The notes below the pieces were generated by a model that was given only the letters and a program-made list of their open reading frames with translations, was not told the DNA's origin and did no database searches. 55,817 bases of DNA from Pseudonocardia sp. SCN 73-27 (GTDB taxonomy: Bacteria > Actinomycetota > Actinomycetes > Mycobacteriales > Pseudonocardiaceae). Location of the stretch: assembly GCA_001725415.1 (NCBI GenBank), contig MEGH01000050.1, forward strand, positions 1 through 55,817. The letters are read 5' to 3'. Both the position numbers and the translations under genes were made by a program. Of the stretch, positions 1,719-55,717 are shown piece by piece; within the stretch, counting starts at the first letter, position 1; every line of letters starts with the position of its first letter.

Positions 1719-3709
1719 CAGTTCTCCTCCGTGTCCACAGTGAGCAGCACCGCGTCCTTCGCGACGGCGGCGCCCGCCCGGGCGCGCAGGTCGCGGACCA
1801 CGCCGTCGGCCGGCGCGGTGAGTACGTGTTCCATCTTCATGGCCTCGACGACGACGAGCCGCTGACCGGCGACGACGGTGTCGCCCTCGGCCACGTCGAC
1901 CACCGTGACGGTGCCGGGCATGGGGCTGACGACGGGCCCGCCCGTCGACGCCGCGTCGGCGCGGGCGGCCTCCAGCCGACCCTGCTCCCGCACCGCCCAC
2001 GCATACCCGTCGCGCCCGATCCACAGCGTCCCGTCGTCGGCCCGCGCCGCCCGGTAGCGCCGGGTGACACCGCCCTGTGAGTGGCAATAGTCGCTGTAGC
2101 GACCATTGCCGCTCACGAGCTCTGTGCTGGTGCTTTCCGCCGGCGAGCCGCCGATGATCAGGGACGCGTCGGCCGCGCGGCCGCGGGCCGTGACCTCGAC
2201 CGGGTCGTGACCCGGGACGAGCAGGGTGCGGGTGGTCGCGGCGCTGTCGCCGAGGCGCCAGCCGCCGGGGATGTCGAAGGGATCGACGACGGCGCCCGTC
2301 GGTTCCAGGTCCAGCAGCGCCACCCCGGTCGCGGCGCCGAGGACGTCGGCGGGGAGGTCGGCCGAGGCCCAGTCGTCGAGCCGGCGGCCGACGAGGCCGG
2401 TGTCGAGGTTCGCGGCGCGGACGTCGCCGTCCGCGAGCAGGGCGCGCAGGAACCCGATGTTGGTGCCCAGCCCCAGCAGCGTGGTGTGGGCCAGCGCGGT
2501 GTCGAGGCGCCGGATCGCCTCGTCGCGGTCGGCGCCGTGGGCGATGACCTTGGCGAGCATGGGGTCGTAGTCGGAGCCGACGACACCGCCGCTCTCGATG
2601 CCGGCATCCGTGCGGATCCCGGCCCCGGTCGGCGCCTCGAAGGCGAGGATGCGCCCTCCGGTCGGCAGGAAGCCTGCGGCCGGGTCCTCGGCGTAGACAC
2701 GGACCTCGATCGCGTGCCCGTCGAGACGCACGTCGTCCTGCCCGATCGGCAGCGGCTCCCCCGCGGCGACCCGCAGCTGCAGCTCCACCAGGTCGAGCCC
2801 GGTGACCATCTCCGTGACCGGGTGCTCGACCTGCAGCCGCGTGTTCATCTCCATGAAGAAGAACTCGTCGGGCCGGTCGCCGCCCACGATGAACTCGACG
2901 GTGCCCGCACCGGTGTAGCCGACCGACCGGGCCGCCTCGACCGCCGCCGCGCCCATCCGCTGCCGCTGCTCGGGCGTGAGCAGCGCGGACGGCGCCTCCT
3001 CGACGATCTTCTGGTGCCGCCGCTGCAGCGAGCACTCGCGCTCACCAAGGTGGACGACGGTGCCGTGGGCGTCGGCCATGACCTGGATCTCGATGTGCCG
3101 CGGCGTCGTGACGAGCCGTTCGACGAGCAGGGTGTCGTCGCCGAACGCGCCCTTGGCCACGCGCCGCGCGCCGACGATGGCGTCGACCAGGTCCTCGGGG
3201 CGGTGGACCTCGACCATGCCCTTCCCGCCGCCACCCGCCGAGGGCTTGAGCAGCACCGGGTAGCCGATCTCGTCGACGGCCGCGGCGAGGTCGTCGTCGG
3301 AGAGGCCGGCGCCGTCGGAACCCGGGACGACCGGCACACCCGCCTTCGCGACGGTCTGCTTCGCGCGGATCTTGTCGCCCATCGCCTCGATCGCCGACGC
3401 CGGCGGGCCGACGAACACGATGCCCGCGTCCTCGCACGCCGCGGCGAACGCGGTGTTCTCCGAGAGGAAGCCGTAGCCGGGGTGGACCGCGTCGGCCCCC
3501 GTCGCCCGAGCGGCGTCGAGGACGCGCTCGATCGACAGGTAGGCGTTGGTGGCGCCCAGCGACACCGCGACGTCCGCCGCGGCGACGTGCGGCGATCCGG
3601 CGTCGACGTCCGTGTACACCGCCACGGAGCGGATGCCCAGCCTGCGCAGCGTGCGGATGACCCGCAGCGCGATCTCGCCACGGTTGGCGACCAGCACCGT
3701 CGAGAACAT
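1718..3709 (-). CDS. accA1: Acyl-CoA carboxylase alpha subunit (biotin carboxylase + BCCP)
   Basis: ATP-dependent carboxylation of biotin, feeding the AccD1 carboxyltransferase; 663 aa. The N-terminal biotin carboxylase domain opens MFSTVLVANRGEIALRVIRT, with HPGYGFLSEN, the glycine-rich ATP loop LLKPSAGGGGKGM, ERECSLQRRHQKIVEEAPS and MEMNTRLQVEHPVTE. The C-terminal biotin carrier has VVEAMKMEHVL, whose lysine is biotinylated. ATG 3709 lies 5 nt after the accD1 stop. Oddity: in the linker between the carboxylase and carrier domains, a 40-bp palindrome (2077-2116) is read in frame as VSGNGRYSDYCHS. The gene stays open through it, so the enzyme probably tolerates the added segment. Pairing with an MccB-like beta subunit and a dehydrogenase suggests methylcrotonyl-CoA carboxylation. 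Confidence 0.93.
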   Translation of the reverse strand: MFSTVLVANRGEIALRVIRTLRRLGIRSVAVYTDVDAGSPHVAAADVAVSLGATNAYLSIERVLDAARATGADAVHPGYGFLSENTAFAAACEDAGIVFVGPPASAIEAMGDKIRAKQTVAKAGVPVVPGSDGAGLSDDDLAAAVDEIGYPVLLKPSAGGGGKGMVEVHRPEDLVDAIVGARRVAKGAFGDDTLLVERLVTTPRHIEIQVMADAHGTVVHLGERECSLQRRHQKIVEEAPSALLTPEQRQRMGAAAVEAARSVGYTGAGTVEFIVGGDRPDEFFFMEMNTRLQVEHPVTEMVTGLDLVELQLRVAAGEPLPIGQDDVRLDGHAIEVRVYAEDPAAGFLPTGGRILAFEAPTGAGIRTDAGIESGGVVGSDYDPMLAKVIAHGADRDEAIRRLDTALAHTTLLGLGTNIGFLRALLADGDVRAANLDTGLVGRRLDDWASADLPADVLGAATGVALLDLEPTGAVVDPFDIPGGWRLGDSAATTRTLLVPGHDPVEVTARGRAADASLIIGGSPAESTSTELVSGNGRYSDYCHSQGGVTRRYRAARADDGTLWIGRDGYAWAVREQGRLEAARADAASTGGPVVSPMPGTVTVVDVAEGDTVVAGQRLVVVEAMKMEHVLTAPADGVVRDLRARAGAAVAKDAVLLTVDTEEN
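2077..2116. repeat. 40-bp palindromic element, class A, inside accA1
   Basis: Left arm GTGAGTGGCAATAGTCGC, 4-nt loop, right arm GCGACCATTGCCGCTCAC; 18-bp arms with two mismatches that would be G-U pairs on one RNA strand. It lies within accA1 and is translated there. The same element lacking coding context is at 6737-6776 and a half copy at 55691. Confidence 0.9.
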
Positions 3710-3714
3710 GTGCC

Positions 3715-5292
3715 TCACATCCGGAAGACGCCGAACGCGGGGTCCCCGAGGGGCGCGTTGGCGGCGATCGAGAGGGACAGACCGAGGACGCGGCGGGTGT
3801 CGGCGGGGTCGATGACGCCGTCGTCCCACAGCCGGGCCGAGGAGTAGTAGGGGTGGCCCTGCTCCTCGTACTGCGCGCGGATGGCATCGGGGTCGGCGTT
3901 GCCGACCGTGCCGAGCACCGTCGCGGCCTGCTCCCCGCCCATGACGGAGATGCGGGCGTTGGGCCACATGAACAGGAAGCGTGGCGAGTAGGCCCGGCCG
4001 CACATGGCGTAGTTGCCGGCGCCGAACGAGCCGCCGATGACGACGGTCAGCTTCGGCACCCGCGTCGACGCCACCGCGGTCACCATCTTGGCGCCGTTCT
4101 TGGCGATGCCCCCGGCCTCGTACGCAGCGCCGACCATGAACCCGGAGATGTTCTGCAGGAACACCAACGGGATGCCGCGCTGGTCGCACAGCTCCACGAA
4201 GTGCGCGCCCTTGACCGCGGACTCGCTGAACAGGATGCCGTTGTTGGCGACGATCCCGACGGGGTGCCCGTGGATGTGGGCGAAACCGGTGACGAGCGTC
4301 GTCCCGTACTCGGCCTTGAACTCGTGGAACCGTGAGCCGTCGACGACCCGCGCGATGACCTCACGCACGTCGTAGGGGGTGCGGGTGTCGGCCGGGACCA
4401 TGCCGTAGAGCTCGGCCGGGTCGACGACCGGCTCCTCCGTCGGCTGCGTGGACCAGGGCCGGGCGGCGCGTGGGCCCAGAGTCGACACGATGGAGCGCAC
4501 GATCTGCAGGGCGTGCGCGTCGTCGTCGGCAAGATGGTCGGTGACGCCGGAGACGCGGGAGTGCAGCGCCCCGCCGCCCAGCTCCTCCGCGGTGACGACC
4601 TCGCCCGTCGCGGCCTTCACCAGCGGCGGACCACCCAGGAAGATCGTGCCCTGGTCGCGGACGATGACGGCCTCGTCGCTCATCGCGGGGACGTAGGCGC
4701 CGCCGGCGGTGCACGAGCCCATGACTGCGGCGATCTGCGGGATACCGAGGCCCGACATCGTGGCCTGGTTGTAGAAGATGCGGCCGAAGTGCTCGCGGTC
4801 GGGGAATACGTCGTCCTGCTGCGGGAGGAAGGCACCGCCGGAGTCGACGAGGTAGACGCACGGCAGCCTGTTGTGCAGGGCCACCTCCTGCGCGCGGAGG
4901 TGCTTCTTGACCGTCATCGGGTAGTAGGTGCCGCCCTTGACGGTGGCGTCGTTGGCGACGATCACGCACTCGCGACCCGCCACGCGGCCGACGCCGGTGA
5001 TCATCCCGGCGCCGGGGGCGTCGCCGCCGTAGAGGCCGTGGGCGGCCAGCGGGGACAGCTCCAGGAAGGGCGACGACGGGTCGAGCAGTGCGTCGACCCG
5101 GTCGCGCGGCAGCAGCTTACCCCGGGCGACGTGGCGTTCCCTGCTGCGCGCGGGTCCGCCGAGGCGGGCGGTGGCGAGCGTCGCGTTGAGGTCCGCGACG
5201 AGGTCGCGGTGGGCGGAGGCGTTGCGCGCGAACGCGTCGCCGCCGGGATCGGCCGCCGTGGCGAGCACGGGGGCGTCGGTCGGGCTCGTCAT
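3715..5292 (-). CDS. accD1: Acyl-CoA carboxylase beta subunit (carboxyltransferase), MccB-like
   Basis: Transfers CO2 from carboxybiotin on AccA1 to an acyl-CoA; 525 aa, normal for the family. The N-terminal crotonase-like half carries [49 protein letters not shown] and [17 protein letters not shown]. The C-terminal half carries [40 protein letters not shown] and [20 protein letters not shown]. The [12 protein letters not shown] and ISGFMVG wording is that of methylcrotonyl-CoA (and geranyl-CoA) carboxylases rather than propionyl-CoA carboxylases. Start ATG 5292 has GGAGGG a few bases upstream. It is first gene of the accD1-accA1-dehydrogenase operon; two TetR-type palindromes lie 24-57 bp upstream. 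Confidence 0.92.
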
Positions 5293-5315
5293 CGACCCTC
5301 CAGACAGGCAACCAT

Positions 5316-5349
5316 GTTAGCGATCGTTAACAGGTTAGCGAACGTTAAC
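5316..5349. promoter_or_regulatory. Twin TetR-type operators upstream of accD1
   Basis: Two copies of a palindrome, GTTAGCGATCGTTAAC at 5316-5331 and GTTAGCGAACGTTAAC at 5334-5349, lie in tandem 18 bp apart, centre to centre. The same motif, GTTAGCGCTCGCTAAC, stands directly in front of the TetR gene at 10357. The second copy contains the TAA stop and last codons of the MocR gene, so the accD1 promoter must lie within the 3' end of that gene. Binding by the 10357 TetR protein is an inference from the shared motif. Confidence 0.75.
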
Positions 5350-6726: not shown

Positions 6727-6736
6727 GACACCCCCT

Positions 6737-6776
6737 GTGAGCGGCAATGGTCGCTACGGCGACTATTGCCGCTCAC
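6737..6776. repeat. 40-bp palindromic element, class A, between mocR and the EamA gene
   Basis: Arms GTGAGCGGCAATGGTCGC and GCGACTATTGCCGCTCAC with loop TACG, one mismatch. As RNA it would close with a C(UACG)G tetraloop, a very stable type. It occupies the divergent intergenic region, 11 bp from the mocR start codon. The remainder of the gap (6777-6849) holds an inverted pair, TGGTCC at 6784 and GGACCA at 6822, that could belong to the MocR operator, but this is weak. Confidence 0.9.
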
Positions 6777-15552: not shown

Positions 15553-16581
15553 GTGAGTATCCGCATGCCCCGAACACTTCGACGACGGATGCTGCTGCCG
15601 CTCGCAGCGGCGCTCGCCGTGGCCCTCGCAGGCTGCGGCACAGCGCAGTCACCCTCCACGTCCCCGTCGGCGCCGCCGGCCGGCCCCGGCTTCCCGGTGA
15701 CCATCGACCACGCCCTCGGTTCCACCACCATCACCGCCGCGCCGCAGCGCGTGGTCACCATCGGCTGGAGCGACCAGGACGCCGTGCTAGCACTCGGTGT
15801 CCAGCCGGTCGGCACCACGGAGTGGTTCGACGAGCAGCCGGGCGCCGTCTTCCCGTGGGCGACCGCGGCCGCGAAGGGCGCGACCCCCGAGATCGTCGCG
15901 AACGCCGGCGAGATCAGCTTCGAGAAGGTGGCCGCCCTCCGCCCGGACCTGATCCTCGCCCTGTACGAGGGCCTGGACCGCTCCGAGTACGACAAGCTGT
16001 CGGCGATCGCCCCCACCGTCGCCCACCCGGCCGAGTACGACGCCTTCGGCGCCCCCTGGCAGGAGACGACGGTGACGATCGGCCGCGCGCTCGGCCGTGA
16101 GGCGCAGGCCAAGGACCTGGTGGCGGGCGTGGAGCAGAAACTCGCCGCCGTCCGCACGGCTCACCCGCAATGGGCCGAGAAGACCATGCTCGTGATGGCG
16201 ACGGCCGAGGCCGGCACGTACGGGGTCTTCTCGCCGCAGGACCCGAAGGCCCGGTTCTTCGCCGACCTCGGCTTCAAGACTCAGCCCCCGTGGCTCGCCC
16301 CGCGCGTGCAGGACAACCTCGCGAACGTCAGCGCCGAGGAGTTCACGCTCCTCGACGTCGACCGCCTCGCCTGGACCTCCGACCCCGACCTCGTCGCCAC
16401 GCTGCAGAAGGATCCCATCTACAACCGGCTCGACGTCGTCCGCGACGGCCGCGTGTCCTACTTCGACTACACGCAGGCCCCGTTCCCGGGTGCGGCGATC
16501 ACCTTCAACACCGTGCTGAGCATCCCCTACGCCCTCGACCAGGTCGTTCCCGAGCTGGAGAAGCTGGACGCCGAGCCGTGA
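15553..16581 (+). CDS. Iron-siderophore ABC transporter substrate-binding lipoprotein
   Basis: A cell-surface lipoprotein of 342 aa that captures ferric siderophore. The signal peptide has twin arginines and a hydrophobic core ([20 protein letters not shown]) ending in the lipobox LAGC. The mature part is a FecB/FhuD-type periplasmic-binding fold: [34 protein letters not shown], the long linking helix around [19 protein letters not shown]-like sequence, and [10 protein letters not shown] at the end. GTG 15553 has CGGAGGAGC 7 nt upstream. It overlaps the NRPS start by 4 nt (GTGA). No FecCD-type permease or uptake ATPase is present in the window, so the import membrane complex must be elsewhere. 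Confidence 0.9.
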
Positions 16582-19500
16582 CCGCACTGAGCATCGACGA
16601 GCTGACGCCGTGGGCCCGCAGTCCCCTGCGGGAGGTCGACGAACTGCCGTGGTCACGGCTGTTCGAGAAGCGTGCCGCGGAGCGGCCCACGGCGACCGCG
16701 GTCGTCTGCGAGGACGAGTCGTTGAGCTACCACGAGCTCAACGAGCGTGCCAACCGGATGGCCCGCCTGCTCCGGGCGCGGGGGGTGGGGGCCGAGGACG
16801 TCGTCGGCCTCGCGCTCCCCCGCTCGCCCGAGCTGGTGGTCGCGGTGCTCGCGGTGCTCAAGGCGGGAGCAGTGTTCCTGCCGGTCGATCTGGACCATCC
16901 GGCCGAGCGGGTCGCCTACCTGCTGGACGACTCCGGCGCCGAGCTGATCCTCACCACGACCGACCTGGCGGGCGAGCTGCCGCCCGCAGCGGCGGCGGTG
17001 CGCGTGGACGCCGCCGCCACCGTGGCCGAGCTGTCCGGGCGATCGGGTGCCGACCTCGACGACGCGGAGGTGGGCGGCCCCATCCATCTGGACCGGGCCG
17101 CCTACCTCATCTACACCTCCGGCTCGACCGGTCGCCCCAAGGGGGCGCTGCTCACGCACGAGGGCATCGGCAGCCTCGTCGCGACGGCGGTGGACCGGCT
17201 GGGGGTGGACGCGCGGAGCAGGGTCGCGCAGTTCGCCTCGATCGGGTTCGACGTCGCGGTCTGGGACCTGACGATGTCGCTGTGCGTCGGCGGAACCGTC
17301 GTCCTCGTGCCGGCCCACCGCCGGGTCGCGGGCCCCGAGCTCACCGACTACCTCTGCGGCCACGGGATCACCCACATGATTCTGCCGCCCTCGCTCGTGG
17401 CGGCCCTGCCGCCGGAGAGCCGGTTGCCCGACGGCGCCGTGCTGGTGGTGGGCACGGAGACGGTGCCGCCGGAGGTGCTGCGGCGCTGGACCGGCCCCCT
17501 GCAGGTGGTGACCGCGTACGGGCTGACCGAGGCGACGGTGAACTCCACCTTGTGGACGGCCGAGCCCGGGTGGAGCGGGCCCGCCCCGATCGGCCGCCCC
17601 GACCCCAACACGCACGCGTTCGTGCTCGACGAGCAGCTGCGTCCGGTCGGGGTGGGCGAGGTCGGCGAGCTCTACGTCGCCGGTCGGGGGCTGGCCAGGG
17701 GGTACCGCGGACGGGCCGGGCTGACCGCGTCGCGGTTCGTGGCCGACCCGTTCGCGGTCGACGGCTCCCGGATGTACCGCACCGGGGACCGGGTCCGGTG
17801 GCGGACCGACGGGACACTGGACTTCCTCGGGCGCGCGGACCAGCAGGTCAAACTGCGTGGCCACCGGATCGAGCCGGGTGAGATCGAGGCCGCGCTGCTG
17901 GCGCAGCCCGGCGTCACCCAGGCCGCGGTCGTCGTCCGCGAGGACCAGCCCGGCCGCCGCATGCTGGTCGGGTACGTGGTGCTCGACGCCCCGGCCGACA
18001 GCCCGGCCGACGTGCGGGCCCGGTTGGCCGACTCGTTGCCGGCGCACATGGTCCCCACCGCGCTGGTGCCGATCGCCGGCGGACTGCCGATGACGCCGAA
18101 CGGCAAGCTCGACCGCGACGCCCTGCCCGCACCGCAGATCGAGGCCGCCGGCGGTCGGCCACCTCGCGACGACGCCGAGCGCCGCTGGTGCCGGTTGCTG
18201 GCCGGGGCCCTGGACCTGCCCGAGGTGGGGCCGGAGGACGACTTCTTCGTACTCGGCGGCGACAGCATCACCGCGGTCCGGGTGATCCGCGGCGCCCACG
18301 AGGACGGCCTCCGGGTGCGGGTGCGGGAGCTGATGGAGCTGCGCACCGCGGAGGCGCTCGCCGCCCGGTTCCCCGCCGCGGAACCGGAGCACCGCGCAGC
18401 CCAGGCTTCCGACGGTTCGGGCCCACTGCTCGACCCGCAGGTCGCGGCCCGGGCCGCCGCCCGCTACGGAGTCGGCACCGACGCGGTCTTCCCGGCCGCA
18501 CCGCTGCAGTCCGGGCTGTACTTCCAGTCGGTCTACGAGGGCTCGGGCGACGTCGACCCCTACACCGCGCAACACGACTTCGAGTTCGACGCTCCCCTCG
18601 ACGTCGCCCTGCTCGGCCGCGCGTGCGCGACACTGCTGGAGCGTCACCCGTTCCTGCGCGCCGGCCTGACCGCCGAGGGCGTTCCGCAGCCCGTGCAGGT
18701 CGTGCTGCCGACGGCCACCGTCCCCATCGAAGAGGTCGCCCTCACCGACCTGCCCCTCGACCACGCGCTGGAGCGCCTGGCCGCCGTGGCCGCGGACCAC
18801 CGCGGCCGGCGGTTCGACCTCGCCACGCCGCCACTGTTCCGCATCGCCGTCGCCCACCTGCCCGGTGGCCGGTCCCGGCTGGTGCTCACCCAGCACCTCA
18901 CCGCGTGGGACGGCTGGTCGCACCACATCGTCCTGCGAGAACTGTTCGCGCTGCTCGGCCACGACGGCACCGATCCGGGACTGCCCGCCGCGCCGTCGCA
19001 CCTGGACCACCCGCACTGGCTGGCCGTCCGAGACCACATGGCCGACGCAGCCGCGTGGCGGCACGCGCTGGCGGGGCTGGACGGCGGCACGCTCGTCGCC
19101 GGCGCCCGGCAGGCCGCGCCCGCGGACGCGCCCGCCCTGCCCTCGACCGCCGAGCTGGAGCTGCCCGCGGAGGCCGACGGAGCCGTCCGCGCCGGCGCCC
19201 GCGCCCTCGGCGTCACGGTCAACACCGTCCTCAACGCCGCCTGGGCGATCACCCTGGGCGGGCTGACCGGGCGGACCGACGTGGTCTTCGGCACCACGGT
19301 GGCCGGGCGGCCACCCGAGCTCGCGGGCAGCGACCGGTCGGTCGGCCAGTTCCTGAACACCGTGCCGGCCCGCGTGCGTCTCGACCTCGCCGAGCCCGTG
19401 GGCGCCCTGCTGCAGCGAATCCAGCGGGACCGGGCGGCCCTGCTCGACCACGAGCACGCCGGGCTGGCCGAGATCCAGCGTGCCGCCGGGCAGCAGCGAT

Positions 19501-22500
19501 TGTTCGACACCCTGTTCGTGCTGCAGAACTTCCCGAAGCTGGACCCGGCGGTGCTCGACGCGGTGGGCGCCCGCTACGTCGACTACGCCGACGCGACGCA
19601 CTACCCGCTCGCGCTGATCGTCGCCCCGCAGCCGCGGATGCGGTTCACCCTGCAGTTCCGGCCCGACGTCCTGGACCGGGCGACGGCGACGGCACTGCTG
19701 GACCGCCTCGCGACGACGACGCGGCGGTTGCTCGCGGCGCCCGCCGAGCCCGTCGGGCGGGTCGACGTGGTGACCGACGGCGAGCCGGCGGCACTGCGCG
19801 CGGCGTGGTCGGCCACCGAGCGCGACCTGCCCGACCGCACGGTGGCCGAGCACCTCGCGACGCTGGCCGCGGCCACCCCGCACGAGACGGCCCTCGTGTG
19901 CGGCGACGACCGGCTGACCTTCGCCGAGCTCGACGCGCGGGTCGACCGCCTCGCCCGGCTGCTCGTGACCCGCGGCGCGGGCCCGGAGCGCATCGTCGCC
20001 CTGGCCCTGCCCCGCTCCGCCGACATGGTGGCGACGTTGTTCGCCGTGCTGCGCACCGGCGCCGCGTACGTGCCCATGGACCTCGAGCTGCCGCCCGCGC
20101 GCATGGCCTCGATGGTCGGCGACGCCCGGCCGATCTGCCTCGTGACGCTCGCCGACGGGCCCGACCTCGACGTGTCGACGATCAGGCTCGACAGCCCCGA
20201 GATCGTCGCCGAGCTGGCCGCACTGCCACCCGGGCCGCCGCCGTCGACCGACCTGGCGGGTTTCGCCGCCGGCTCACCCGGACGGCTGGACCACCCCGCG
20301 TACCTGATCTACACGTCCGGCTCCACCGGCACACCCAAGGGCGTGCTCACCCCGCACCGGGGCCTCACCAACATGCTGGCCGAGTACCGCGCCGAGATCG
20401 TCCCGCGTGCCCTCGCCGGCACCGGCGGCCGTCGGCTGCGCGTCGCCCACACCACGTCGTTCTCCTTCGACATGTCCTGGGACGAGCTGTTCTGGCTGCT
20501 CGACGGGCACGAGCTGCACCTGTGCGACGAGCAGCTGCGACGCGACGCCCACCGCCTCGTCGAACACTGCCGCGCGCAGCGCCTCGACGTCCTCAACGTG
20601 ACGCCGACCTACGCCCGCGCCCTGCTCGACGCCGGCCTGCTCGACGCCGGCCTCCTCGACGGCGAGCACGTGCCGTCCCTGGTGCTGCTCGGTGGCGAGG
20701 CGGCGACCGACTCCGTCTGGACCGCGCTGCGCGAAGCGCCGCGCACCGACGGCTACAACCTCTACGGGCCCACCGAGTTCAGCGTGAACGCGCTCGGTGG
20801 CGGTGTCACCGACAGCCCCACCCCGACGGTCGGGCGACCGGTGCACAACACCCGGGTCCACATCCTGGACAGCGCGCTGCGACCCGTGCTCGACGGCTCG
20901 CCCGGCGAGCTCTACCTCGCCGGCGCCGGGTTGGCCCGCGGCTACCACGACCGGGCCGGCCTGACCGCCGAGAACTTCGTCGCCGACCCGTACGCGGCCG
21001 AACCCGGCAGACGCATGTACCGGACCGGTGACCTGGCCCGGCGGCGGCCCGACGGGACCATCGACTTCCTCGGCCGCACCGACGACCAGGTCAAGATCCG
21101 CGGCTACCGGATCGAGCCGGGCGAGATCGTCGCCGCACTGGAGGCGCACCCGCTCGTCGCGCAGGCAGCGGTGGTCGTCGACAGTACGTCGTCGCGCGGG
21201 GGCCCGGCCGTCGCCCGGTTGGCGGCTTACCTGGTGCCCGCCGACCCACGCACCGGCGCCCCCGCCGCCGCGATCCGCGGCCACCTGGCACTGCACCTCC
21301 CCGCGCACATGGTCCCCGCCTCGATCGTCTCCCTCGACGAGCTGCCGTTGACCGCGAACGGCAAGCTGGACGTCAAGGCGCTCCCGGCGCCGGTCTACAC
21401 CGGCGGCGGCAACCGCCCCCCGCGGACCGGACCCGAGCGGACGCTCTGCGCCTTGTTCGCCGAGCTGCTCGACGCCGCCGACGTGGGAGCCGACGACGAC
21501 TTCTTCGCACTCGGCGGCGACAGCATCAGCTCCGTCACCCTCGTCGGTCGAGCCCGGGAACGCGGGCTGGTCCTCACCCCGCGGCAGGTCTTCACCAGCC
21601 GGACCCCCGAGGCACTCGCCCTCGTCGCCACGATCGAGGACACCCCCGAGCAGGCCAGGCCGCCGGTCGGGCCACTCGAACTGGTACCGCTCGACCTCGC
21701 AGCCCTCGGCTCGCTGCGGGAGCGGTTCGCCGACCTCACCGACGTCTGGCCGCTGTCCCCGCTGCAGTCCGGGCTGTACTTCCAGGCGGTCTTCGACGAC
21801 TCCGGGGCGCTCGACGTCTACACCGGGCAGACCACCTTCGAGCTGGACCACCGCGTCGACACGGCCCGCCTGCGCGGCGCGACGCAGCTGCTGCAGCTGC
21901 GGCACCCGACGCTGCGCTGCGCGTTCGTCGACAACGGTGACGGCACCGTCCACCAGGTCGTGCGGGCCTCCGCCGACGACCCGGTGACCGAGCACGACCT
22001 GGCAGGCCTGGGCCCCGCCGAGGCCGCGGCGCGGACCGAGGACATCGCGCACGCCGACCGCACCCGCCGGTTCGACCTGACCGCGCCGCCACTGTTCCGG
22101 ATGTCGCTGCTGCGCCTGCCCGGCGGAACCGACCGGCTGGTGGTCACCTACCACCTGCTGGCGTGGGACGGCTGGTCGCACAGCACCCTGTTCGACCAGC
22201 TGTTCACCCTCTACGCCGGTGGCAGCGCGCAGGCGCTGCCGCCCGCGGCCGGCTACCCCGAGTACCTGCGCTGGCTGGCCGAACGCGACGGCGACGCCGC
22301 GCGCGCGGCGTGGGCCGGCGCCCTCGCCGGGATCGAGGAGCCCACCCTGGTCGGTCCGGCGCTGTGCGTCGGCACCACTGTCCCCGCAGCCATCCCCGCC
22401 CGGACCACGATCACGGTGCCGGCCGCGGGGTCCGAAGCCGTGCGTGCGGGTGCCAGACGCTGCGGGGTCACGCTCAACACCGTGCTCAACGCGGCGTGGG

Positions 22501-25500
22501 CGCTGGTCCTGGGTGGCCTCACCGGCCGCGACGAGGTGGTCTTCGGAACCACCGTCGCCGGGCGGCCACCGGAGCTGCCCGGGGCCGCGCACGTCGTCGG
22601 GCAGTTCCTCAACACCGTGCCGACGCGGGTGCGCACCGACCCCGCCGAAGCCGTGGGCGCGTTCCTGCGCCGGCTGCAGGACGAGCGGCTCGCCCTGGGC
22701 GAGCACGAGTTCCTCGGGCTCGGCGACATCCAACGCGCCGCAGGGCAGCCGGTGCTGTTCGACACCCTGTTCGTGCTGCAGAACTTCGCCGACATCCCGC
22801 AGCGTGCCCTCGACGCCGCCGGGGTCGTCGGCCGCCGCCACGTCGACGCCACCCACTACCCGCTGGTGATGATCGCGACCCCCGGCGACGAGCTGGGTCT
22901 GACCCTCGAACATCACGTCGCCGTGGGCGACGCCGAGGCGTCGGCGCTGCTGCGGCGCACGGCCGACGTAGCCGCGACGCTCGTCGCCGACCCGGACCGT
23001 CCGCTCGGCCGGCTCGATCTGCTCGGGCACGACGAGCGAGCACGCCTGGAGCGGGAGTGGTCGGCCACCGCCCGCCCGCTGAACGCGGAGTCGGTGGCCG
23101 AGACGCTCGCCGCGACAGCTGCGGCGCACGCCGGGGACACGGCCCTGGTCTGTGGGGCGGAGCGGCTCTCGTTCACCGACTTCGACGAACGGGTCGACCG
23201 GCTGGCCCGGTTGCTGCTGGCCCGCGGTGCGGGCCCCGAACGCGTCGTCGCGCTCGCCCTGCCGCGCGGCACGGACATGGTCGCCGCACTGTTCGCGACA
23301 CTGCGCACCGGCGCCGCCTACCTCCCGCTGGACCTGGAGTACCCACCGCAGCGCCTCGCCGTGATGGTCGCCGACGCCGACCCGGTGTGCGTCCTCACGA
23401 CGGCCGACGCCGCCGCGCTGTTGCCCGCCGGTGTCCCGGCGGCGGCGCTCGACGACCCGGCGGTGGCCGCCGAGCTGGCCGCCTTCCCGTCCGCCCCGCT
23501 CGGCGACGAGGAGCGCCCCGGCTTCGCCGTCGCCGACCCCAGCCGGTTGACGCATCCCGCCTACCTGATCTACACCTCCGGTTCCACCGGCGTCCCCAAG
23601 GGTGTGCTCACCCCGTACCAGGGGCTCACGAACATGTTGGCCAACCACCGGGCCGAGATCTTCGACCCCGTGGTGAGCGCCGCGGGCGGGCGCCGCCTAC
23701 GGATCGCGCACACCGTCTCCTTCTCCTTCGACATGTCGTGGGAGGAGCTGCTCTGGCTCGTCGAGGGCCACGAAGTGCACGTGTGCGACGAGGAGCTGCG
23801 CCGCGACGCCCACAAGCTGGTGGCCTACTGCCGCGACCAGCGCATCGACGTGGTCAACGTGACGCCCACGTTCGCGCACGCGCTGCTCGAGGAGGGGCTG
23901 CTCGACGGGCCGCACCGACCGTCCCTGGTGTTGCTGGGCGGCGAGGCCGTCACCGACACGGTGTGGACCGCGCTGCGGGAGGCCGACGGGGTGACCGGCT
24001 ACAACCTCTACGGCCCCACCGAGTACACGATCAACACACTGGGCGGGGGCACCGCCGACAGCGTCACCCCCACCGTCGGCAGGCCGATCCACAACACCCG
24101 CGGTTACGTGCTCGACGCCTCCCTGCGCCCGGTCCCGGTCGGCTGCCCCGGCGAGCTGTACATCGCCGGCACCGGGCTGGCCCGGGGATACCACCGGCGG
24201 GCCGCGCTCACCGCGGAGCGGTTCGTCGCCGACCCGTTCGCCGCCGGGCCGGGCCGGCGGATGTACCGCACCGGTGACCTGGTCCGCCGGCGTCCGGACG
24301 GGAACGTCGACTTCCTGGGCCGCACCGACGACCAGATCAAGATCCGCGGGTTCCGGGTCGAGCCCGGCGAGATCGCCGCCGCCCTGGAGTCGCTGGGGCA
24401 GGTGGCCCACGCCGCGGTCGTCGCGCGCACCCATCGCCCGTCCGGGCGCACGCGGCTGGTGGGCTACGTGGTCCCGACGGTCGCGGGCACCCCGGCCGAC
24501 GAGCTGGTCGCCACCGTGCGGGGCCTGCTGGCCGAGCGCCTGCCCGCCCACATGGTCCCGGCCGCGCTGGTCCCGGTTCCCGAGCTTCCGCTGACCGTCA
24601 ACGGCAAGCTCGACACCACCGCGCTCCCCGAGCCGACGTTCGCCTCGAGCCGTCGGCGGCGCGCCCCGCGCACCGACCCCGAACGGCTGCTGTGCGGGCT
24701 GTTCGAGGAGTTGCTCGGGGTGAGTGACGTGGGTGTCGACGACGACTTCTTCGAGCTCGGCGGCGACAGCATCGTCTCCATCGGGCTCGTGGGCCAGGCC
24801 CGCCGGCTCGGCATGGCCATCAGCCCGCGGCTGGTGTTCGAGCGCCGCACCCCCGAGGCGCTCGCACTCGCCGCCGCGACCGCCCCGGCCGCGCGACGGG
24901 CACCCGAGTCCGGGGTCGGGCGCGTTCCCCCGATCCCGATCCTCGCCGGGCTGCGCGACGAGGCCGTCGGCATCAACGGCTTCTTCCAGTCGCTGTGCGT
25001 GCAGACCCCGGTCGGCGCCGACGCGACGACCCAGATCACTTTGCTGCAGGCCCTGCTCGACCGCCACGACCTGCTCAGGGCCCGGCTGGACCGGGCCGAC
25101 GACTGGGCACTGCAGGTTCCCGAGCCCGGCTCCGTCGCCGCCGCGGACCTGCTGCGGACGGTCCCTGCGCCGGACGACCCGGCCGCGCTCGCCGCACTGC
25201 TCGACGCCTGCGAGGACGACGCGGTCGGCCGGCTCGACCCCGACCGCGGGGTGATGGTGCAAGCCGTGTTCGTCGACGCCGGGCCGGCGCGGCGCGGGCG
25301 GCTGCTGCTCGTCGCCCATCACATCGTGGTCGACGGCGTGTCCTGGCGCATCGTCGGTGAGGACCTGGCCGCGCTGTGGCGACAGCACCAGGACGGTCGT
25401 CCGCTCGCCCCGGAGCCGGTGCCCACCTCGTTCCGCGGCTGGGCCGAGGCGCTGCACCGGGAGGCCGGCCGCGACGAGCGGCTGGCCGAGCTGCCCCGCT

Positions 25501-37783: not shown

Positions 37784-37823
37784 GTGAGTGGCGTTATTGG
37801 CTATAGCCAATAACGCCACTCAC
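37784..37823. repeat. 40-bp perfect palindrome, class B, after ppc
   Basis: Arms GTGAGTGGCGTTATTGGCTA and its exact complement, with no loop. It begins 4 bp after the ppc stop and could serve as a transcript end. It is identical in its 40 bp to the copy at 42158. Confidence 0.95.
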
Positions 37824-42154: not shown

Positions 42155-42200
42155 CCCGTGAGTGGCGTTATTGGCTATAGCCAATAACGCCACTCACGGG
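42155..42200. repeat. 46-bp perfect palindrome, class B, at a convergent gene junction
   Basis: The 40-bp core 42158-42197 is identical to that at 37784, and flanking CCC/GGG extend the perfect symmetry to 46 bp. Its right arm supplies the TGA stop of the adenylate cyclase (42194-42196). It separates two convergent genes and could terminate both. Confidence 0.95.
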
Positions 42201-43675
42201 TTCACGGGTGTGGCGAGGCGTGTCGCGTCGGTGCGGCCGCGCAGGGTGACGGCGTCGCCGAGGCGCCAGTGCGCGGCTTCCTCCGGCGAAGCCGACGACA
42301 CGGCCGCCGCCGACGCCAGGACCCAGCCGTCGGACGACTTCGCCAGCTCGGTGAGCCGCGCCGCCTCGTTCACGGGGTCGCCGATCACCGTGTACTCGTA
42401 GCGACGCGGGTCGCCGACGTTGCCCGCCACCGCGTCGCCCGCCGAGACGCCGATCCCGGCGGTCGTACCGGGCAGCTCCCGCTCGATGCGGGCGGCGAGG
42501 GTGCGGGCAGCGCACAAGGCCTGGCCTGCGGGATCGTCGAGCGTGGCGGGGGCCCCGAAGACCGCGAGCGCGGCGTCGCCCTCGAACTTGTTGATCCACC
42601 CGCCGCAGCCCTCGACGACCTCGACGACCACCCCGAAGAAGCGGTTGAGCAGGGCGACGACCTCGGTCGGCGGCCGGTGTGCGGCCAGTTCCGTCGACCC
42701 CACGAGATCGACGAACAGCACCGCCACGGAGCGGACCTCGCCGCCGAGCTCGACCTCGCCGGCGGCCGCGGCGAGCGAGGCGACGTCGTGGCCGACCTGC
42801 CGGCCGAAGAGGTCGCGTAGCCGTTCACGTTCGCGCAGGCCGTCGGTCATCGTGTTGAAGCCGGCCTGCAGCATGCCCAGTTCGGTGGCGTCGTAGACGG
42901 GGACGCGGGCGTCGAGGTCGCCGCCCTCCACGCGGTGCAGGGCGCGACGTACCGCGGTCACGGGGTCGGCGACGGCGCGGGCGGCGCCGACCGTCGTCAG
43001 GAAGCCGGCGAAGAGCGCGACGAGGCCGACGGCGATCGTGATCGTCGCGAGCTGCCCGGCGGGGACGTCCTGGAACACCAGCGACGACACCGCCGCCAGG
43101 ATCAGCCCGACGACGGGCACCGCCGTCCCGAGCGCCCAGAACAGCACCGACCGCACCAGCACGCCGATCCGCATCCGGCGCCGCAGCGGCCGGTCGGCGA
43201 GCACCCGCGCGGCGGCGGGCCGCAGGATGCGTTCGGCGAGCAGGTACGACAGCGCGGCCGTCGTGATGCCCCCGATGAGAATCGTCTCGCCGACGGTCAG
43301 CGCGAGCCGCCAGGCGTACTGCAGGTTGACCAGCACGAACAGCACGGTGGCGGCGAGCCAGAGCGCCGCCTGCACGGTCGCGAGCCGCAGCGGGCCGTAG
43401 AGGACGAGGCGGCGCTGGGCGGCCGCGTCGTCGCGCCGGGTGCGCAGCAGCAGCCCGCCCCACACGAGGCCGAGCGGGACGCAGACGATCAGGTACCCGG
43501 CGAGGATCAGCAGGTTGATGGAGCGGATGCGGTCGGGGTCGTCGACGTTCCCGGTGGGCAGCACCCAGGCCGCCAGCGCGACGACGATCGCGGTGCCGGT
43601 CAGGTTCGCGGTGGCGACGACGCCCCCGAGCAGCATCCTGACGGGCCAGCCGACGACCGACCGCCCGAGTCTCAT
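42194..43675 (-). CDS. Membrane-bound class III adenylate/guanylate cyclase with HAMP domain
   Basis: 493 aa. Six hydrophobic segments in residues 10-265 (for example MLLGGVVATANLTGTAIVVA, LLILAGYLIVCVPLGLVWGG, LATITIAVGLVALFAGFLTT), then a HAMP linker (ADPVTAVRRALHRVEGGDLD) and a C-terminal CHD catalytic domain: VAVLFVDLVGSTELAAHRPP, FEGDAALAVFGAP, AGIGVSAGDAVAGNVGDPRR and YTVIGDPVNEAARLTELA. The metal-binding Asp pair is FVD and EGD, and the D of IGDPVN suggests ATP selectivity by family rules. Layout matches mycobacterial Rv1318c-Rv1320c type cyclases. The C-terminus LATPVNP* is set by a palindrome. Confidence 0.9.
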   Translation of the reverse strand: MRLGRSVVGWPVRMLLGGVVATANLTGTAIVVALAAWVLPTGNVDDPDRIRSINLLILAGYLIVCVPLGLVWGGLLLRTRRDDAAAQRRLVLYGPLRLATVQAALWLAATVLFVLVNLQYAWRLALTVGETILIGGITTAALSYLLAERILRPAAARVLADRPLRRRMRIGVLVRSVLFWALGTAVPVVGLILAAVSSLVFQDVPAGQLATITIAVGLVALFAGFLTTVGAARAVADPVTAVRRALHRVEGGDLDARVPVYDATELGMLQAGFNTMTDGLRERERLRDLFGRQVGHDVASLAAAAGEVELGGEVRSVAVLFVDLVGSTELAAHRPPTEVVALLNRFFGVVVEVVEGCGGWINKFEGDAALAVFGAPATLDDPAGQALCAARTLAARIERELPGTTAGIGVSAGDAVAGNVGDPRRYEYTVIGDPVNEAARLTELAKSSDGWVLASAAAVSSASPEEAAHWRLGDAVTLRGRTDATRLATPVNP

Positions 43676-43686: not shown

Positions 43687-44517
43687 CTAGCCCGAACGGC
43701 GTATGGTCCCGCGCAGGTGCTCGACGCGCCCCGCCACGCCGAGGTCCCAGCCGCTGTCGACCGCCCTGGTCCGCAGATCCACGCGCGACGGCAGCCGCAG
43801 CGGTTTCCGGAACTCGACGTCGTAGGCGATCGCGTCGTCGGTCCGCCCCTGCAGCGAGGCCAACGCCCGTCCAGCCGTCCACATGCCGTGAGCGATGGCC
43901 GTCGGGAAGCCGAAGGCCTTGGCGCTCAACGGGTGCAGGTGGATCGGGTTGACGTCACCGGACACGGCCGCGTACCGACGCCCGGTGTCGGCGGGGACGC
44001 GCCACACCGCGGCGGCGGGCTCGTCGGAGACGTCGGGCAGCTCGTCGGGCGTCGCGGCGATCGCACCGGCCGGCGGCCGGGCGCCACGCGCGAGGTAGGT
44101 GCTGCGGCCGGTCCACACGGCGTCGCCCTCCACGGCGACCGCGGTGACCAGGTCGACCTGCGCGCCCTTCGGGTGGGCGACGAACCGCTCCGCATGCACG
44201 GCGAGGCGCAGCAGCTCACCTGCGTCGATCGCCCGGGTGGCGACGATCCGGTTCCGCACGTGGACCAGCCCGGGCAGGGCGAGCGGGAAGCTCCGCCGGG
44301 CCATGAGCTCGACATGCAACGCGAACCCGAGCACGTGCGGGTACGTCGGCGGCAGGGTGTCCGACAGCGCGAACCCGCATACCCGCGCGTAGTCGGCGAG
44401 GTGTCCGCGGTCGACGAGGACGTCGTCGCGGACGACCTCGTCGGTGGGCAGTTCCGAGCCGCGGCCGGGCAGCACCGCCCCGACCGCGGCCTTGGCGTAC
44501 AACGGCGCGAGCGACAT
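43687..44517 (-). CDS. htdX: MaoC-like (R)-hydroxyacyl dehydratase, HtdX-like
   Basis: 276 aa, a double hot-dog protein. The C-terminal active half holds YAAVSGDVNPIHLHPLSAKA followed by FGFPTAIAHGMWTAGRALAS, which carry the D/N and H of the hydratase-2 motif; the N-terminal half is non-catalytic (LPPTYPHVLGFALHVELMAR). It removes water from a 3-hydroxyacyl thioester, or in reverse hydrates an enoyl thioester. ATG 44517 overlaps the stop of the FabG4-like gene as TGATG. The order with FabG4 and FadA2-like genes equals that of M. tuberculosis Rv0241c-Rv0242c-Rv0243, which supports the symbol. Confidence 0.87.
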   Translation of the reverse strand: MSLAPLYAKAAVGAVLPGRGSELPTDEVVRDDVLVDRGHLADYARVCGFALSDTLPPTYPHVLGFALHVELMARRSFPLALPGLVHVRNRIVATRAIDAGELLRLAVHAERFVAHPKGAQVDLVTAVAVEGDAVWTGRSTYLARGARPPAGAIAATPDELPDVSDEPAAAVWRVPADTGRRYAAVSGDVNPIHLHPLSAKAFGFPTAIAHGMWTAGRALASLQGRTDDAIAYDVEFRKPLRLPSRVDLRTRAVDSGWDLGVAGRVEHLRGTIRRSG

Positions 44518-45899
44518 CAGGCCCCCAGCATCGACTGGCCGCACACCCGCACGACCTGCCCGTTCACCGCACCCGACGACGCCTGCCCCAGCCACCCGAT
44601 GGTCTCGGCGACGTCGACGGGCAGCCCGCCCTGGCGCAGGCTGTTGACCCGCCGCCCGGCCTCCCGGGTGCCGACGGGCATCTTCGCGGTCATCTCCGTC
44701 TCGATGAATCCGGGCGCGACGGCGTTGATCGTCGCGCCGTGCTCGGCGAACCGCGGCGCCAGCGCCCGGACCATGCCGATGATCCCGGCCTTGGACGCCG
44801 CGTAGTTCGTCTGGCCGCGGTTGCCCGCGATCCCGCTCTGCGACGACACGCACACGATGCGGGCGTTCGCGCCGAGGAGGTCGGGGGCGGCGAGCAGCGC
44901 TTCGTTGATGGTGAGCTGTGCGCCGAGGTTGACGGCCAGCACCGAGTTCCAGCGGTCGTCGTCCATGTTGGCCAGCAGTTTGTCGCGGGTGATGCCGGCG
45001 TTGTGGACGACGAGGTCGACGCGCCCGAAGCGCTCTCGCAGGAAGGACAGCAGCCGGGACGCGGCGTCGGGGGCGGTGATGTCGAGCTGCAACGCCGTCC
45101 CGCCGGTCCGGTTCGCGACGGCGGCGAGGCCTTCGCCTGCGGCGGGGATGTCGACGGCGACCATCGTCGCGCCGTCGCGGGCCAGGGTGTCGGCGATCGC
45201 GGCGCCGATCCCGCGTGCCGCCCCGGTGACGACGGCGACGCGCCCGGCCAAGGGGCGCACGGGGTCGACGGGGTCGTCCATCCCGGTGGGGTCGACCGGC
45301 TCGCCGGCCGGGGCGCCGAGGTGCACGACCTGCCCGTCGACGTAGGCCGACCGCGCGGACAGGAAGAACCGGACCGTGGAGTCGACGGTCGCGGGCGCGG
45401 CGTCGGGGTCGACGACCAGCAGGTTCGCGGTCGCCCCGGCCCGCAGCTCCTTGCCGATGGACCGGACGAGCCCGTCGAGCGCCTGCGCCACGGCAGCGCC
45501 TTCGGCGCCTCGTGAGTGGCTGTATTGGCTATAGCCAATAACGCCACTCACAGGGCCCAACAACAGGAGCCGGCCCGAGGGGGCGAGCTTGCGCACTGCC
45601 GGAGTCAGGATCTGCTGGGCCGCGGCCAGGTCCGCGAGCGTGGTCGCGTCCGTCAGGTCGAGGACCACGGCGGCGAGCTTGTCGTCGCCCGCCTCCGTGA
45701 CGACGGTGGCGCCTGCCTCGACGACGAGCGCGGCGATGGGCTCGGCGAACCGGCCGCCGCCCACGGCCGTGACGAGCGCAGGACCGCCGTCGAGCAGCGG
45801 CTGGCCAGGTGAGTAGCGGCGCAGGACCGGGATGCGTGGGGCGCCGAGCCGGCGGGCGAGACCGGTGTTGGACCAGTCTCGCAACGTGTCCGTGGGCAT
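44517..45899 (-). CDS. fabG4: High-molecular-weight 3-oxoacyl thioester reductase, FabG4-like
   Basis: 460 aa, twice the usual FabG length. The N-terminal half is a degenerate Rossmann, flavodoxin-like domain; the C-terminal SDR half has VAVVTGAARGIGAAIADTLA (NAD(P) site), LVVHNAGITRDKLLANMDDD, Ser in IVCVSSQSGIAGNRG and the YAASKAG motif with catalytic Tyr and Lys, then INAVAPGFIETEMTAKMPVG. This two-part build is that of FabG4 (Rv0242c), which is NADH-specific in M. tuberculosis. Oddity: in the N-terminal half a class B palindrome (45512-45551) is read in frame as [13 protein letters not shown], at a place where Rv0242c has a short loop. ATG 45899 was chosen over GTG 45908. Confidence 0.92.
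   Translation of the reverse strand: MPTDTLRDWSNTGLARRLGAPRIPVLRRYSPGQPLLDGGPALVTAVGGGRFAEPIAALVVEAGATVVTEAGDDKLAAVVLDLTDATTLADLAAAQQILTPAVRKLAPSGRLLLLGPVSGVIGYSQYSHSRGAEGAAVAQALDGLVRSIGKELRAGATANLLVVDPDAAPATVDSTVRFFLSARSAYVDGQVVHLGAPAGEPVDPTGMDDPVDPVRPLAGRVAVVTGAARGIGAAIADTLARDGATMVAVDIPAAGEGLAAVANRTGGTALQLDITAPDAASRLLSFLRERFGRVDLVVHNAGITRDKLLANMDDDRWNSVLAVNLGAQLTINEALLAAPDLLGANARIVCVSSQSGIAGNRGQTNYAASKAGIIGMVRALAPRFAEHGATINAVAPGFIETEMTAKMPVGTREAGRRVNSLRQGGLPVDVAETIGWLGQASSGAVNGQVVRVCGQSMLGA
45512..45551. repeat. 40-bp palindromic element, class B variant, inside fabG4
   Basis: Arms GTGAGTGGCTGTATTGGCTA and TAGCCAATAACGCCACTCAC; two adjacent bases in one arm differ from the perfect copies. 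It lies inside the FabG4-like gene, is translated on the minus strand in the only stop-free frame, and leaves the gene open. Confidence 0.92.
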
Positions 45900-50762: not shown

Positions 50763-50842
50763 CGGTCCTCCCCAGGTCGTGATCGCCGTCGACCGGACCG
50801 GCCTCAGGAGCTTATCCGGCGGTGTGTCCCTCTTCCGGGCGG

Positions 50843-51571: not shown

Positions 51572-51583
51572 CCCGACTCCTTG

Positions 51584-51598: not shown

Positions 51599-51616
51599 CT
51601 TGAAATGGACACACGC

Positions 51617-52189: not shown

Positions 52190-52195
52190 GACACC

Positions 52196-52224
52196 AATAT
52201 GACCGATCGTCTTGGTCGCGTCAA
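52196..52224 (-). promoter_or_regulatory. Promoter of tetR (52189) with embedded operator
   Basis: On the minus strand TTGACG (52224-52219), 17-nt spacer, CATATT (52201-52196), then 6 nt to GTG 52189. The operator ATGACCGATCGTCTT (plus strand 52199-52213) lies in the spacer, where bound repressor would block RNA polymerase. Confidence 0.65.
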
Positions 52225-52233
52225 GGAACTGGG

Positions 52234-53195: not shown

Positions 53196-53201
53196 CCCGG
53201 C

Positions 53202-53975: not shown

Positions 53976-54057
53976 TGCACACACCCTCCGCGGTTCCGCG
54001 CCGACAGTACCGGCGCCGACGCCGCGTCCCCGCCGCGTAGGAGAAGCCCACGACCCC

Positions 54058-54118
54058 GCCGAGTTCGACGTGACGCTGGTCCCGACCGCGGTGGCCGGCG
54101 CCAGGTCGAACTCGGCGA
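54058..54118. terminator. Long hairpin behind the quinone-reductase gene
   Basis: CGCCGAGTTCGAC (54058-54070) is perfectly complementary to GTCGAACTCGGCG (54106-54118), 35-nt loop. It lies 8 bp after the stop of the gene at 54127 and before map in the direction of transcription. There is no T-run. It could terminate transcription or be another palindromic repeat of which only one copy is in view. Confidence 0.6.
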
Positions 54119-54126
54119 CGAGAGGG

Positions 54127-55056: not shown

Positions 55057-55125
55057 GTCCCTGTCCTACCCCGTCGCCGGGTCCGAGGCTTGGCGGCGGG
55101 CGCACGAACCCGGACGGGCGTCAGC

Positions 55126-55674
55126 TCAGGACGAGGGCAGGTGCAGGTCGTGCAGGTGGTGCTCGACGTCGTGCAGGAAGTACCGCGAGAAGCTGCCGAC
55201 GGTGAAGACACTGCCGTTGCTGCGCCGGGCCGGACGGTCCCACTGGTCGTCGTGCACGGCGTCCCAGGCCGCGGCGATCCGCTCGCCCGCCTCGGTGAGA
55301 TCCGCCGACACCATCTCGGGATCCTGCAGGTCGTAGCGGTCTTCGCGGGCCGTGACGTCCTGGTCCCAGTCGGCGAAGACGGGGTCGTCCTCGCGCAGCA
55401 TCAGGGTGAGGCGCTCGTGGAAGATCCGGAAGACGTCGCGGACGTGGCAGCCGTACTCGAGCGCCGACCAGGTGGCGGGGTCGGGGCGGCGGCGCGCGTC
55501 GGGGGCGGCGAGTGCGGCGCGGTAGGCCGGCAGCGCCGACCGCACCCTCACGCCGACGGACCCCTGCGCGACAGCGGCGGCGTCGAACCCGCACTCCGGG
55601 CAGGGGCGGTCGAGCACCCAGGTCCAGTCCTTGTCGTCAGGGACGATGGCGTCGGCGTTGCTCGCGTCGGTCAC
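55126..55674 (-). CDS. DinB-fold protein (mycothiol-dependent enzyme-like) with CPECG motif
   Basis: 182 aa, four-helix-bundle DinB/MDMPI-type protein. Possible metal ligands are His in ALEYGCHVRDVFRIFHERL and the cluster HDVEHHLHDL at the C-terminus. The segment DRPCPECGFDAAAV near the N-terminus is a recurrent feature of one actinobacterial DinB subgroup. Members act as thiol (mycothiol) transferases or isomerases; substrate unknown. GTG 55674 is preferred; the longer start at 55701 would read through the palindrome at 55691. It is 70 bp behind the quinone reductase start and runs in the same direction, upstream of it. Confidence 0.82.
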   Translation of the reverse strand: MTDASNADAIVPDDKDWTWVLDRPCPECGFDAAAVAQGSVGVRVRSALPAYRAALAAPDARRRPDPATWSALEYGCHVRDVFRIFHERLTLMLREDDPVFADWDQDVTAREDRYDLQDPEMVSADLTEAGERIAAAWDAVHDDQWDRPARRSNGSVFTVGSFSRYFLHDVEHHLHDLHLPSS

Positions 55675-55690
55675 GGGCCAGACTCTGCTC

Positions 55691-55717
55691 GTGAGCGGCA
55701 ATGGTCGCCACAGCGAC
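55691..55717. repeat. Truncated class A palindrome
   Basis: The full left arm GTGAGCGGCAATGGTCGC, loop CACA and the first five bases GCGAC of the right arm are present. The expected CATTGCCGCTCAC is missing and is replaced by TGTCGAGTCTCGGGACATGT. The break fits insertion of a mobile element into the palindrome. Confidence 0.85.

Follow-up and report, generated by a model that had tools for sequence, protein, structure and literature searches.

How do short palindromes come to be scattered behind the genes of an actinomycete, now and then inside a reading frame, and to carry different arms at the same sites in related genomes? The question is raised by the window analysed here, the whole 55,817-nucleotide contig C50 (MEGH01000050.1) of Pseudonocardia sp. 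SCN 73-27 (genome 6.95 Mb, 73.7% G+C), which contains 40-bp palindromes, five of them complete and a sixth present as a half copy. We consider it fairly probable that these belong to a non-autonomous family of the Pseudonocardiaceae resembling repetitive extragenic palindromes (REPs), handled as folded DNA, whose active variant invades positions behind stop codons and replaces resident copies. The family has REP-like anatomy and siting, is patchily amplified, and has genome-specific arms, with differing arm classes at shared sites. In the following, G000 is the own genome and other G-numbers are relatives' genomes (G323, the nearest relative); L-numbers are loci and C-numbers own contigs. The features concerned are listed by position, strand and description.

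2077..2116, minus strand: class A palindrome in the acyl-CoA carboxylase alpha gene, read in frame as VSGNGRYSDYCHS
6737..6776, plus strand: class A palindrome in the divergent intergenic gap between a MocR/PdxR-like gene and an EamA-type transporter gene (gene caller)
37784..37823, plus strand: class B palindrome, with the phosphoenolpyruvate (PEP) carboxylase stop codon 4 bp ahead
42158..42197, minus strand: class B palindrome flanked by convergent genes; the minus-strand gene 42194-43636 takes its stop from the terminal TGA of the element
45512..45551, minus strand: class B palindrome in the fabG4-like gene, read in frame as 13 residues
55691..55717, plus strand: half class A copy, made up of the left arm, the apex and the first part of the right arm, directly ahead of where an open reading frame (ORF) of the DinB_2 family is called to begin
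1718..3709, minus strand: gene containing the 2077 copy, for the alpha subunit of a biotin-dependent acyl-CoA carboxylase, with the palindrome within the BT_MCC_alpha domain
44517..45899, minus strand: host gene of the 45512 copy, FabG4-like 3-oxoacyl-ACP (acyl carrier protein) reductase (NF006110), with the palindrome as residues 117-129

All six members named in a preliminary description of this DNA were found where it had placed them. The 40-mers of the window that reach at least 17/20 complementary pairs are exactly the five complete palindromes; none reached this threshold in 20 Markov-simulated windows. The half copy at 55691 consists of 27 nt of palindrome, followed by unrelated sequence, and the copy at 6737 is probably non-coding, by its divergent intergenic gap. 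Both in-gene copies are read in frame, and the two peptides first given for them are right. The accompanying claim that only frame 1 is open held in part: frame 2 starts with TGA in both in-gene copies, but the copy at 2077 leaves frame 3 open on its coding strand.

Anatomy, siting and spread of the family

The strict pattern GTGAGYGGC-N10-32-GCCRCTCAC has 131 exact matches in the own genome, at least one of which (48 bp long) is plainly outside the palindrome family, and the looser pattern GTGAGYG-N26-CRCTCAC has 170; the reversed-pattern control gave 0 in each case. Among the matches listed, the unit length is almost exclusively 40 bp, with patterns that permitted 28-50 bp or 38-44 bp. Anatomy and siting were described from 63 own copies, taken from the DNA around listed copies, some unselected tiles and the window. 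Conservation in these extends from about -3 to +43 and not beyond; the consensus is a CCY foot (CCT or CCC), 40 bp, and a GAS foot (GAC or GAG), with constant 7-bp palindrome ends (GTGAGYG...CRCTCAC). Across 51 distinct cores, Watson-Crick cells make up 92%, versus 77% after shuffling of one side, and changes on both sides affect 138 cells, versus at most 71 in 500 shuffles; as the copies were chosen partly by palindromy, the double changes are the better measure of pairing. Folding of two copies as single-stranded DNA gave stems of 18-19 bp with a 4-nt apex. The inner arms are not limited to the two classes first proposed; compensated variants of many kinds occur (AATGGTCGC, GATGGTCGC, GTTATTGGC, ATTACTGGC, AATCATGGC and others).

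Units are single, the nearest pair of own neighbours found being 749 bp apart. Halves unpaired with a partner gave 12 hits in own DNA, and those that look real are the half at 55691 and one cut by a locus end; such halves were rejected as borders of a larger element. No autonomous partner with matching ends, as a MITE would have, was found in the DNA examined. A different dispersed repeat (L031:18736-18789; about 54 bp; matches on both strands in relatives) adjoins a class A copy. Apparent decay products are seen at the sites of own C8:18480 in G302 and own C8:44113 in G275, and at L187 (G275); one palindrome end remains or the stem has about half its length, the expected outcome of hairpin-mediated deletion.

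Genes were called with a simple codon-usage gene caller. By these calls, 38 of the 63 copies are intergenic (20 tandem, 15 convergent, 3 divergent), 21 lie over the 3' end of a gene and 4 are inside; two of the last are at the extreme 3' end, which leaves 2/63 in true gene interiors (2077 and 45512). A called stop codon is present within 26 bp of 54 copies, and in 15 the terminal TGA of the element serves as the stop of the gene. The zone from -5 to +30 around the stop makes up 3.0% of the DNA and holds 51/63 copies (p=6e-66). Relatives agree: a stop lies within 30 bp of 29/32 copies in G323, 12/12 in G275 and 5/5 in G302. Copies with unrelated arms were found at -5 to +30 of a stop in 6/11 (G272), 10/14 (G267) and 7/8 (G271) cases; in some of the misses the stop lies deeper within the element, and 1/14 of the G267 copies is inside a called gene. 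The dominant niche is therefore a few bases past stop codons, and not the gene interior that had been taken as the main theme. Behind stops there is also another palindrome family (ends GAACGGCAC...GTGCCGTTC; loci L129-L138 and L144-L203, for example at the compared sites 4, 9 and 17), whose arms likewise depend on the genome (AGTCGCGCA in G323, TTTCCCGCA in G275). It has 7 copies in G323 (6 at most 150 bp past a stop) and 8/8 in G275; in the DNA examined it has 1 copy in G000 and 0 in G302.

Among 62 genomes of the genus, the general pattern has at least one match in 49, at least 10 in 28 (termed multi-copy below) and none in 13, with a maximum of 496. The GTGAGYG ends are joined to unrelated arms in G271 (TTATCGCGG), G267 (TTAGCGGTG and CTAGGGCCG) and G272 (TAACAGTGT). 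The family-wide search gave at least one match in 209/390 genomes, many of the single hits outside the genus being short and probably unrelated; some genomes of other genera have the same ends with different arms, sometimes in longer units (45-49 bp). The closely similar G280 and G281 have 156 and 158 matches, and among those listed several copies agree in spacing and sequence. A plasmid vehicle was rejected, since plasmids queried with one class B and one class A sequence gave no match. In IMG/VR, 14 contigs match the loose pattern, four of them (L326, L328, L335, L338) as 38-bp hairpins with 15-16/19 pairs; none of the 14 has a near-perfect 40-bp copy bearing the arms of this genus, and a phage vehicle was likewise rejected. 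The hairpin of viral contig L338 (38 bp, 15/19 pairs) has GTGAGTGGC ends and a CCTGCG-type arm resembling the arms of another genus.

Siting of this kind could also be expected of immobile, host-encoded functional hairpins (terminators or stabilisers of mRNA 3' ends) under RNA-level selection with compensatory mutation. The strong hairpin and the double changes fit this explanation, as does the orientation of the feet relative to the adjacent gene (31 agree, 13 disagree, 10 undecided; p=0.01). It was already disfavoured and is very improbable in view of a copy number of 0 in 13/62 genomes versus 496 in another, of identical private arms at dozens of sites, and of in-gene copies that also vary between genomes. 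Selection on pairing at the RNA level would, in addition, predict more G-U than A-C among sense-strand mismatches; over seven genomes these number 30 and 31, so there is no wobble signal, and RNA-level wobble was dropped as a candidate. Rfam gave 0 window matches at the gathering threshold.

Arm classes at shared sites

The class B pattern (GTGAGYGGCRTTRYTGGC-N4-GCCARYAAY) has 37 matches in the own genome, a single one in G323 and none in the 60 remaining genomes of the genus; class A is present in 8/62. For 34 own sites the corresponding loci were compared in G323 and G275; two of the sites were covered in neither genome, and four more were not covered in G275. One of the two, the PEP carboxylase site (37784), was covered by a separate comparison, in which G302 has an apparently decayed copy and G275 lacks the element. 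An additional synteny block was compared across G323, G275 and G302. At many of the compared sites G323, G275 or both have no element or a different palindrome. A 40-bp copy is present in both genomes in 25 own-G323 pairs; the own arms are non-A in 15 of these, and in 13 of the 15 G323 has class A.

Mapped coding flanks have a mean identity of 92%. In ungapped non-coding flanks about half of the bases differ, owing to indels and divergence, and a separate test of the immediate flanks was therefore run, with mismatched pairs as the null and a 99% threshold; fixed and free palindrome orientation gave identical counts. Among the 25 own-G323 pairs, flanks match on two sides in 9, on one side in 10 and on neither in 6. 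The 19 supported pairs comprise 9 with own non-A and G323 A arms, 2 non-A/non-A and 8 A/A. Of the own-G275 pairs, 7/10 are flank-supported, always on one side (5 own non-A/A, 2 A/A). At sites 20 and 24 the arm class differs though both flanks match, and at the 42158 site G323 has a class A copy, with a flank match under the strict threshold. Class A is likely ancestral at the shared sites, as it is found in G275 and G302 too; to judge from these alignments, A and B look like ancestor and descendant rather than the sister classes first proposed, B having the appearance of a private derivative that replaces A at shared sites. Resident copies thus appear to have been overwritten in place. The broader proposal of a non-autonomous, dispersed and patchy family, gene-conversion-like and occasionally read through in genes, is supported.

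The same turnover is seen inside the two enzyme genes. Residues 117-129 of the fabG4-like gene product are encoded by class B in the own genome (13 residues, letters not shown); at the same place class A is read as VSGDSRHSDYRHS in G302 and G323 and as VSGDGRHGDHRHS in G275, and 26 of the 30 fabG4-like loci compared have no element at that position. In a structure model of the FabG4-like protein (mean predicted local distance difference test score, pLDDT, 70.5), the insertion lies between a strand and a helix, with residues 120-129 at pLDDT <50. The loop of the acyl-CoA carboxylase alpha subunit bears class A in G000, G323, G275, G302 and G293 (left end damaged in G293). G311 and G321 have another palindrome in that place, and G272 has a third one close to it; the arms of this third copy are almost those of most others among the matches listed in G272 (126 loose-pattern matches, a few of them unrelated). 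In G311 and G321 the core CCTCGTTCTARCGAGG is common to several of the 6 and 5 loose-pattern matches; the outer arm is not. No GTGAG palindrome is present in the aligned loop in the best 14 of 80 named carboxylase homologues; the five best named homologues are from Pseudonocardia. At the position of the element, the carboxylase loops of G280 (L087), G324 (L085) and G312 (L070) have a stretch encoding HSQ(A/G)G, which may be what is left of a decayed copy, preserved in the protein.

Two further observations concern the surroundings of these genes. The window includes a large nonribosomal peptide synthetase gene (16578-31037) with 4 AMP-binding and 5 condensation stretches. It is flanked by the carboxylase and PEP carboxylase genes, whose distance is about 31 kb in the own genome and <7 kb in G275, which suggests that a gene cluster was inserted or lost.

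Independent insertion and loss, repeated at post-stop hot spots and with no rewriting, might equally leave unlike copies at one site. Other palindrome families do stand at the same post-stop spots in relatives, and the flank matches missing in 6 of the 25 own-G323 pairs accord with such re-entry. Against it, the fabG4 position is identical and is class A in all three occupied relatives, and sites 20 and 24 combine two matching flanks with different arm classes; we hold this explanation to be unlikely.

Several results nevertheless weigh against overwriting of residents by an active variant. At several own class B sites the relatives lack the element or have a different palindrome, and two G323 copies opposite own B sites are non-A (GTCATCGGC, GGTATTGGC). 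The immediate flank is unmatched in 6/25 own-G323 and 3/10 own-G275 pairs, and of the 13 pairs with own non-A and G323 A arms just 2 have matches on two sides; because their flanks are unmatched or one-sided, re-entry at the same post-stop spot is possible for the weakly flanked pairs. The arm distance over 27 own-G323 pairs (2 added by hand) is 4.93 of 18 positions versus 5.57 when shuffled (p=0.038), and 2.39 among the copies within G323; orthologous arms thus retain a weak mutual memory, and replacement would be incomplete or partly gradual. An empty site with clean boundaries was seen once (site 30), new insertion being nowhere else so clean, and no target-site duplication, as had been anticipated for a mobile element, is visible at this sole clean site. 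The acting enzyme was not found in a genome-by-genome search that covered Y1_Tnp only. Finally, wobble neutrality, from few mismatches, mildly disfavours an RNA role.

Candidate enzymes and mechanisms

REPs are thought to spread via Y1 transposases, and an enzyme of this type had been suggested for the present palindromes. No match to Y1_Tnp (PF01797) was found in the own genome or in 25/28 multi-copy genomes of the genus. The domain was matched in 5/62 genomes, 3 of them multi-copy, with no association with copy number class (Fisher p=0.65). Of the 10 Y1 loci examined, one has a nearby GTGAG palindrome, about 0.6 kb from a weak Y1 fragment (G272). A Y1 transposase as driver is not supported by these results. 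Genes between close element pairs were rejected as movers, those scanned being ordinary enzymes: seven encode SDR, FGGY kinase, methionine-synthase-like and RibD_C proteins and, in G323, allantoicase, amidohydrolase and AH_C proteins. One window gene between an element pair encodes a HAMP/guanylate cyclase protein. The scan did not extend to the genes of L131 and L141, the second gene of L021 or gene 43687-44517 of the window.

These results bear on the idea that the palindromes are classical REPs or REPINs (REP doublets forming hairpins) whose REP-associated tyrosine (RAYT-type Y1) transposase was lost or is beyond the reach of the Pfam model. Size, post-gene siting, stop donation, intragenic units and class turnover fit REPs as described in the available parts of PMC3733652 and PMC3686654. 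In the REP "orthoswitch" with RAYT transposases (Nunvar et al. 2013, PMC3686654), old copies stay and decay after the switch, as far as the available text goes; its conclusions allow that originals might be partially replaced by novel variants. The decay of old copies in that model, the scarcity of Y1_Tnp and its lack of association, the 9/10 Y1 loci without a nearby palindrome and the absence of the GTAG tag speak against this idea, and we rate it as improbable.

General recombination, or template switching at replication between hairpins with 7-9 bp of common ends, followed by correction from arm to arm, would need no dedicated enzyme. It would account for constant ends with free but symmetric arms and for genome-specific arms at shared sites, and it is in keeping with Y1_Tnp being unmatched in 25/28 multi-copy genomes. 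It does not account for entry at new sites, the near-constant 40-bp length despite unrelated arms, or post-stop siting, and for RecA-type exchange a homology of 7-9 bp is short. This remains a serious, if less than probable, contender.

We nonetheless prefer a mobile element with an active variant, for which replacement in place, a folded moving form, recognition through constant ends and homing-like copying are what we infer from the comparisons. The element would be handled as folded DNA, probably in the form of a single-strand hairpin arising at replication forks or gaps, and would be recognised through its constant ends and feet. Wobble neutrality, with few mismatches, and end-to-end replacement are weak evidence of a DNA-level process. 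The currently active variant may enter new post-stop sites and also replace resident copies end to end, in a homing-like manner, so that arms would evolve in concert. Behind a gene, the element offers a strong hairpin and, whichever strand is read, a stop codon in one of the frames, and would therefore be tolerated there; a function as bidirectional terminator or 3'-end stabiliser is predicted as possible. Within genes, survival would be limited to the open frame, in loops. A bolder version, put forward tentatively and with some doubt, is a homing-type replicator of about 46 bp, in which machinery recognising the constant ends copies the current variant over residents, genic ones included, so that in every genome the arms would form a consistent "arm barcode" that is swappable genome-wide.

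Comparison with known repeats

A review by Higgins of 1988 reportedly poses in its title the question whether REPs evolve by gene conversion, and the present system renders this old question directly testable. Outgroup-polarised site pairs, one of them within a coding gene, point to overwriting where a Y1 transposase is undetected; they would also exemplify how a repeat family can rewrite protein sequence. A literature search, with most subscription journals outside its scope, gave no description of this palindrome family among the matches listed.

The family is REP-like in the wide sense (palindromes of 20-40 bp, in many copies, mainly extragenic, close behind ORFs) and falls outside the GTAG definition by its tag and the CGTC definition by its stem and tail. 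The GTAG tetranucleotide tag is not found in own copies. When 126 own feet were checked for the CGTC/TGTC/CCTC tags, 34 had GTC and 28 CTC, with a variable fourth base; in place of the 8-9 bp stem and CCA tail of CGTC REPs there is a stem of 18-19 bp and, in that orientation, a tail AGG. The GTAG- and CGTC-tagged REPs (Di Nocera et al. 2013, PMC3733652) are likewise small palindromes behind ORFs, between convergent or same-direction genes and often <20 bp from the stop, with stop codon donation and occasional intragenic copies; recB of two Xanthomonas species has different REPs at about the same site. According to the available parts of that source, the CGTC type is without a dedicated transposase, stems are 8-9 bp (CGTC) or 5-13 bp (GTAG) versus 18-19 bp with a 4-nt apex in the two folds made here, and REPs bear GTAG or CGTC...CCA, whereas the present units are single, with constant GTGAGYG ends and CCY...GAS feet; unlike those REPs as described there, the present arms have apparently been rewritten in place. 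The word Actinobacteria is absent from the text of PMC3733652.

REPINs share conserved ends and compensatory changes inside the hairpin (PMC3116915); as far as described in the part of that source available, they are two inverted REPs around a spacer and RAYT-linked, whereas here there is one near-perfect palindrome and no Y1 match. The parallel first drawn, with Rickettsia palindromic elements, is sound as regards in-frame readable gene insertions (PMC10969869, available part); those elements are about 150 bp long with 44 genic insertions in R. conorii, versus 40 bp and 2/63 own copies here, and the REPs of PMC3733652, in the portion available, are nearer. Orthoswitch REPs are alike in having classes that are specific to a genome or clade and turn over; in the available text of PMC3686654 the model has no on-site overwriting step, whereas here overwriting is indicated and the own genome has no Y1 match. 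Overwriting of residents would thus depart from the published REP/RAYT model, in which, by the same partial source, old copies mainly decay.

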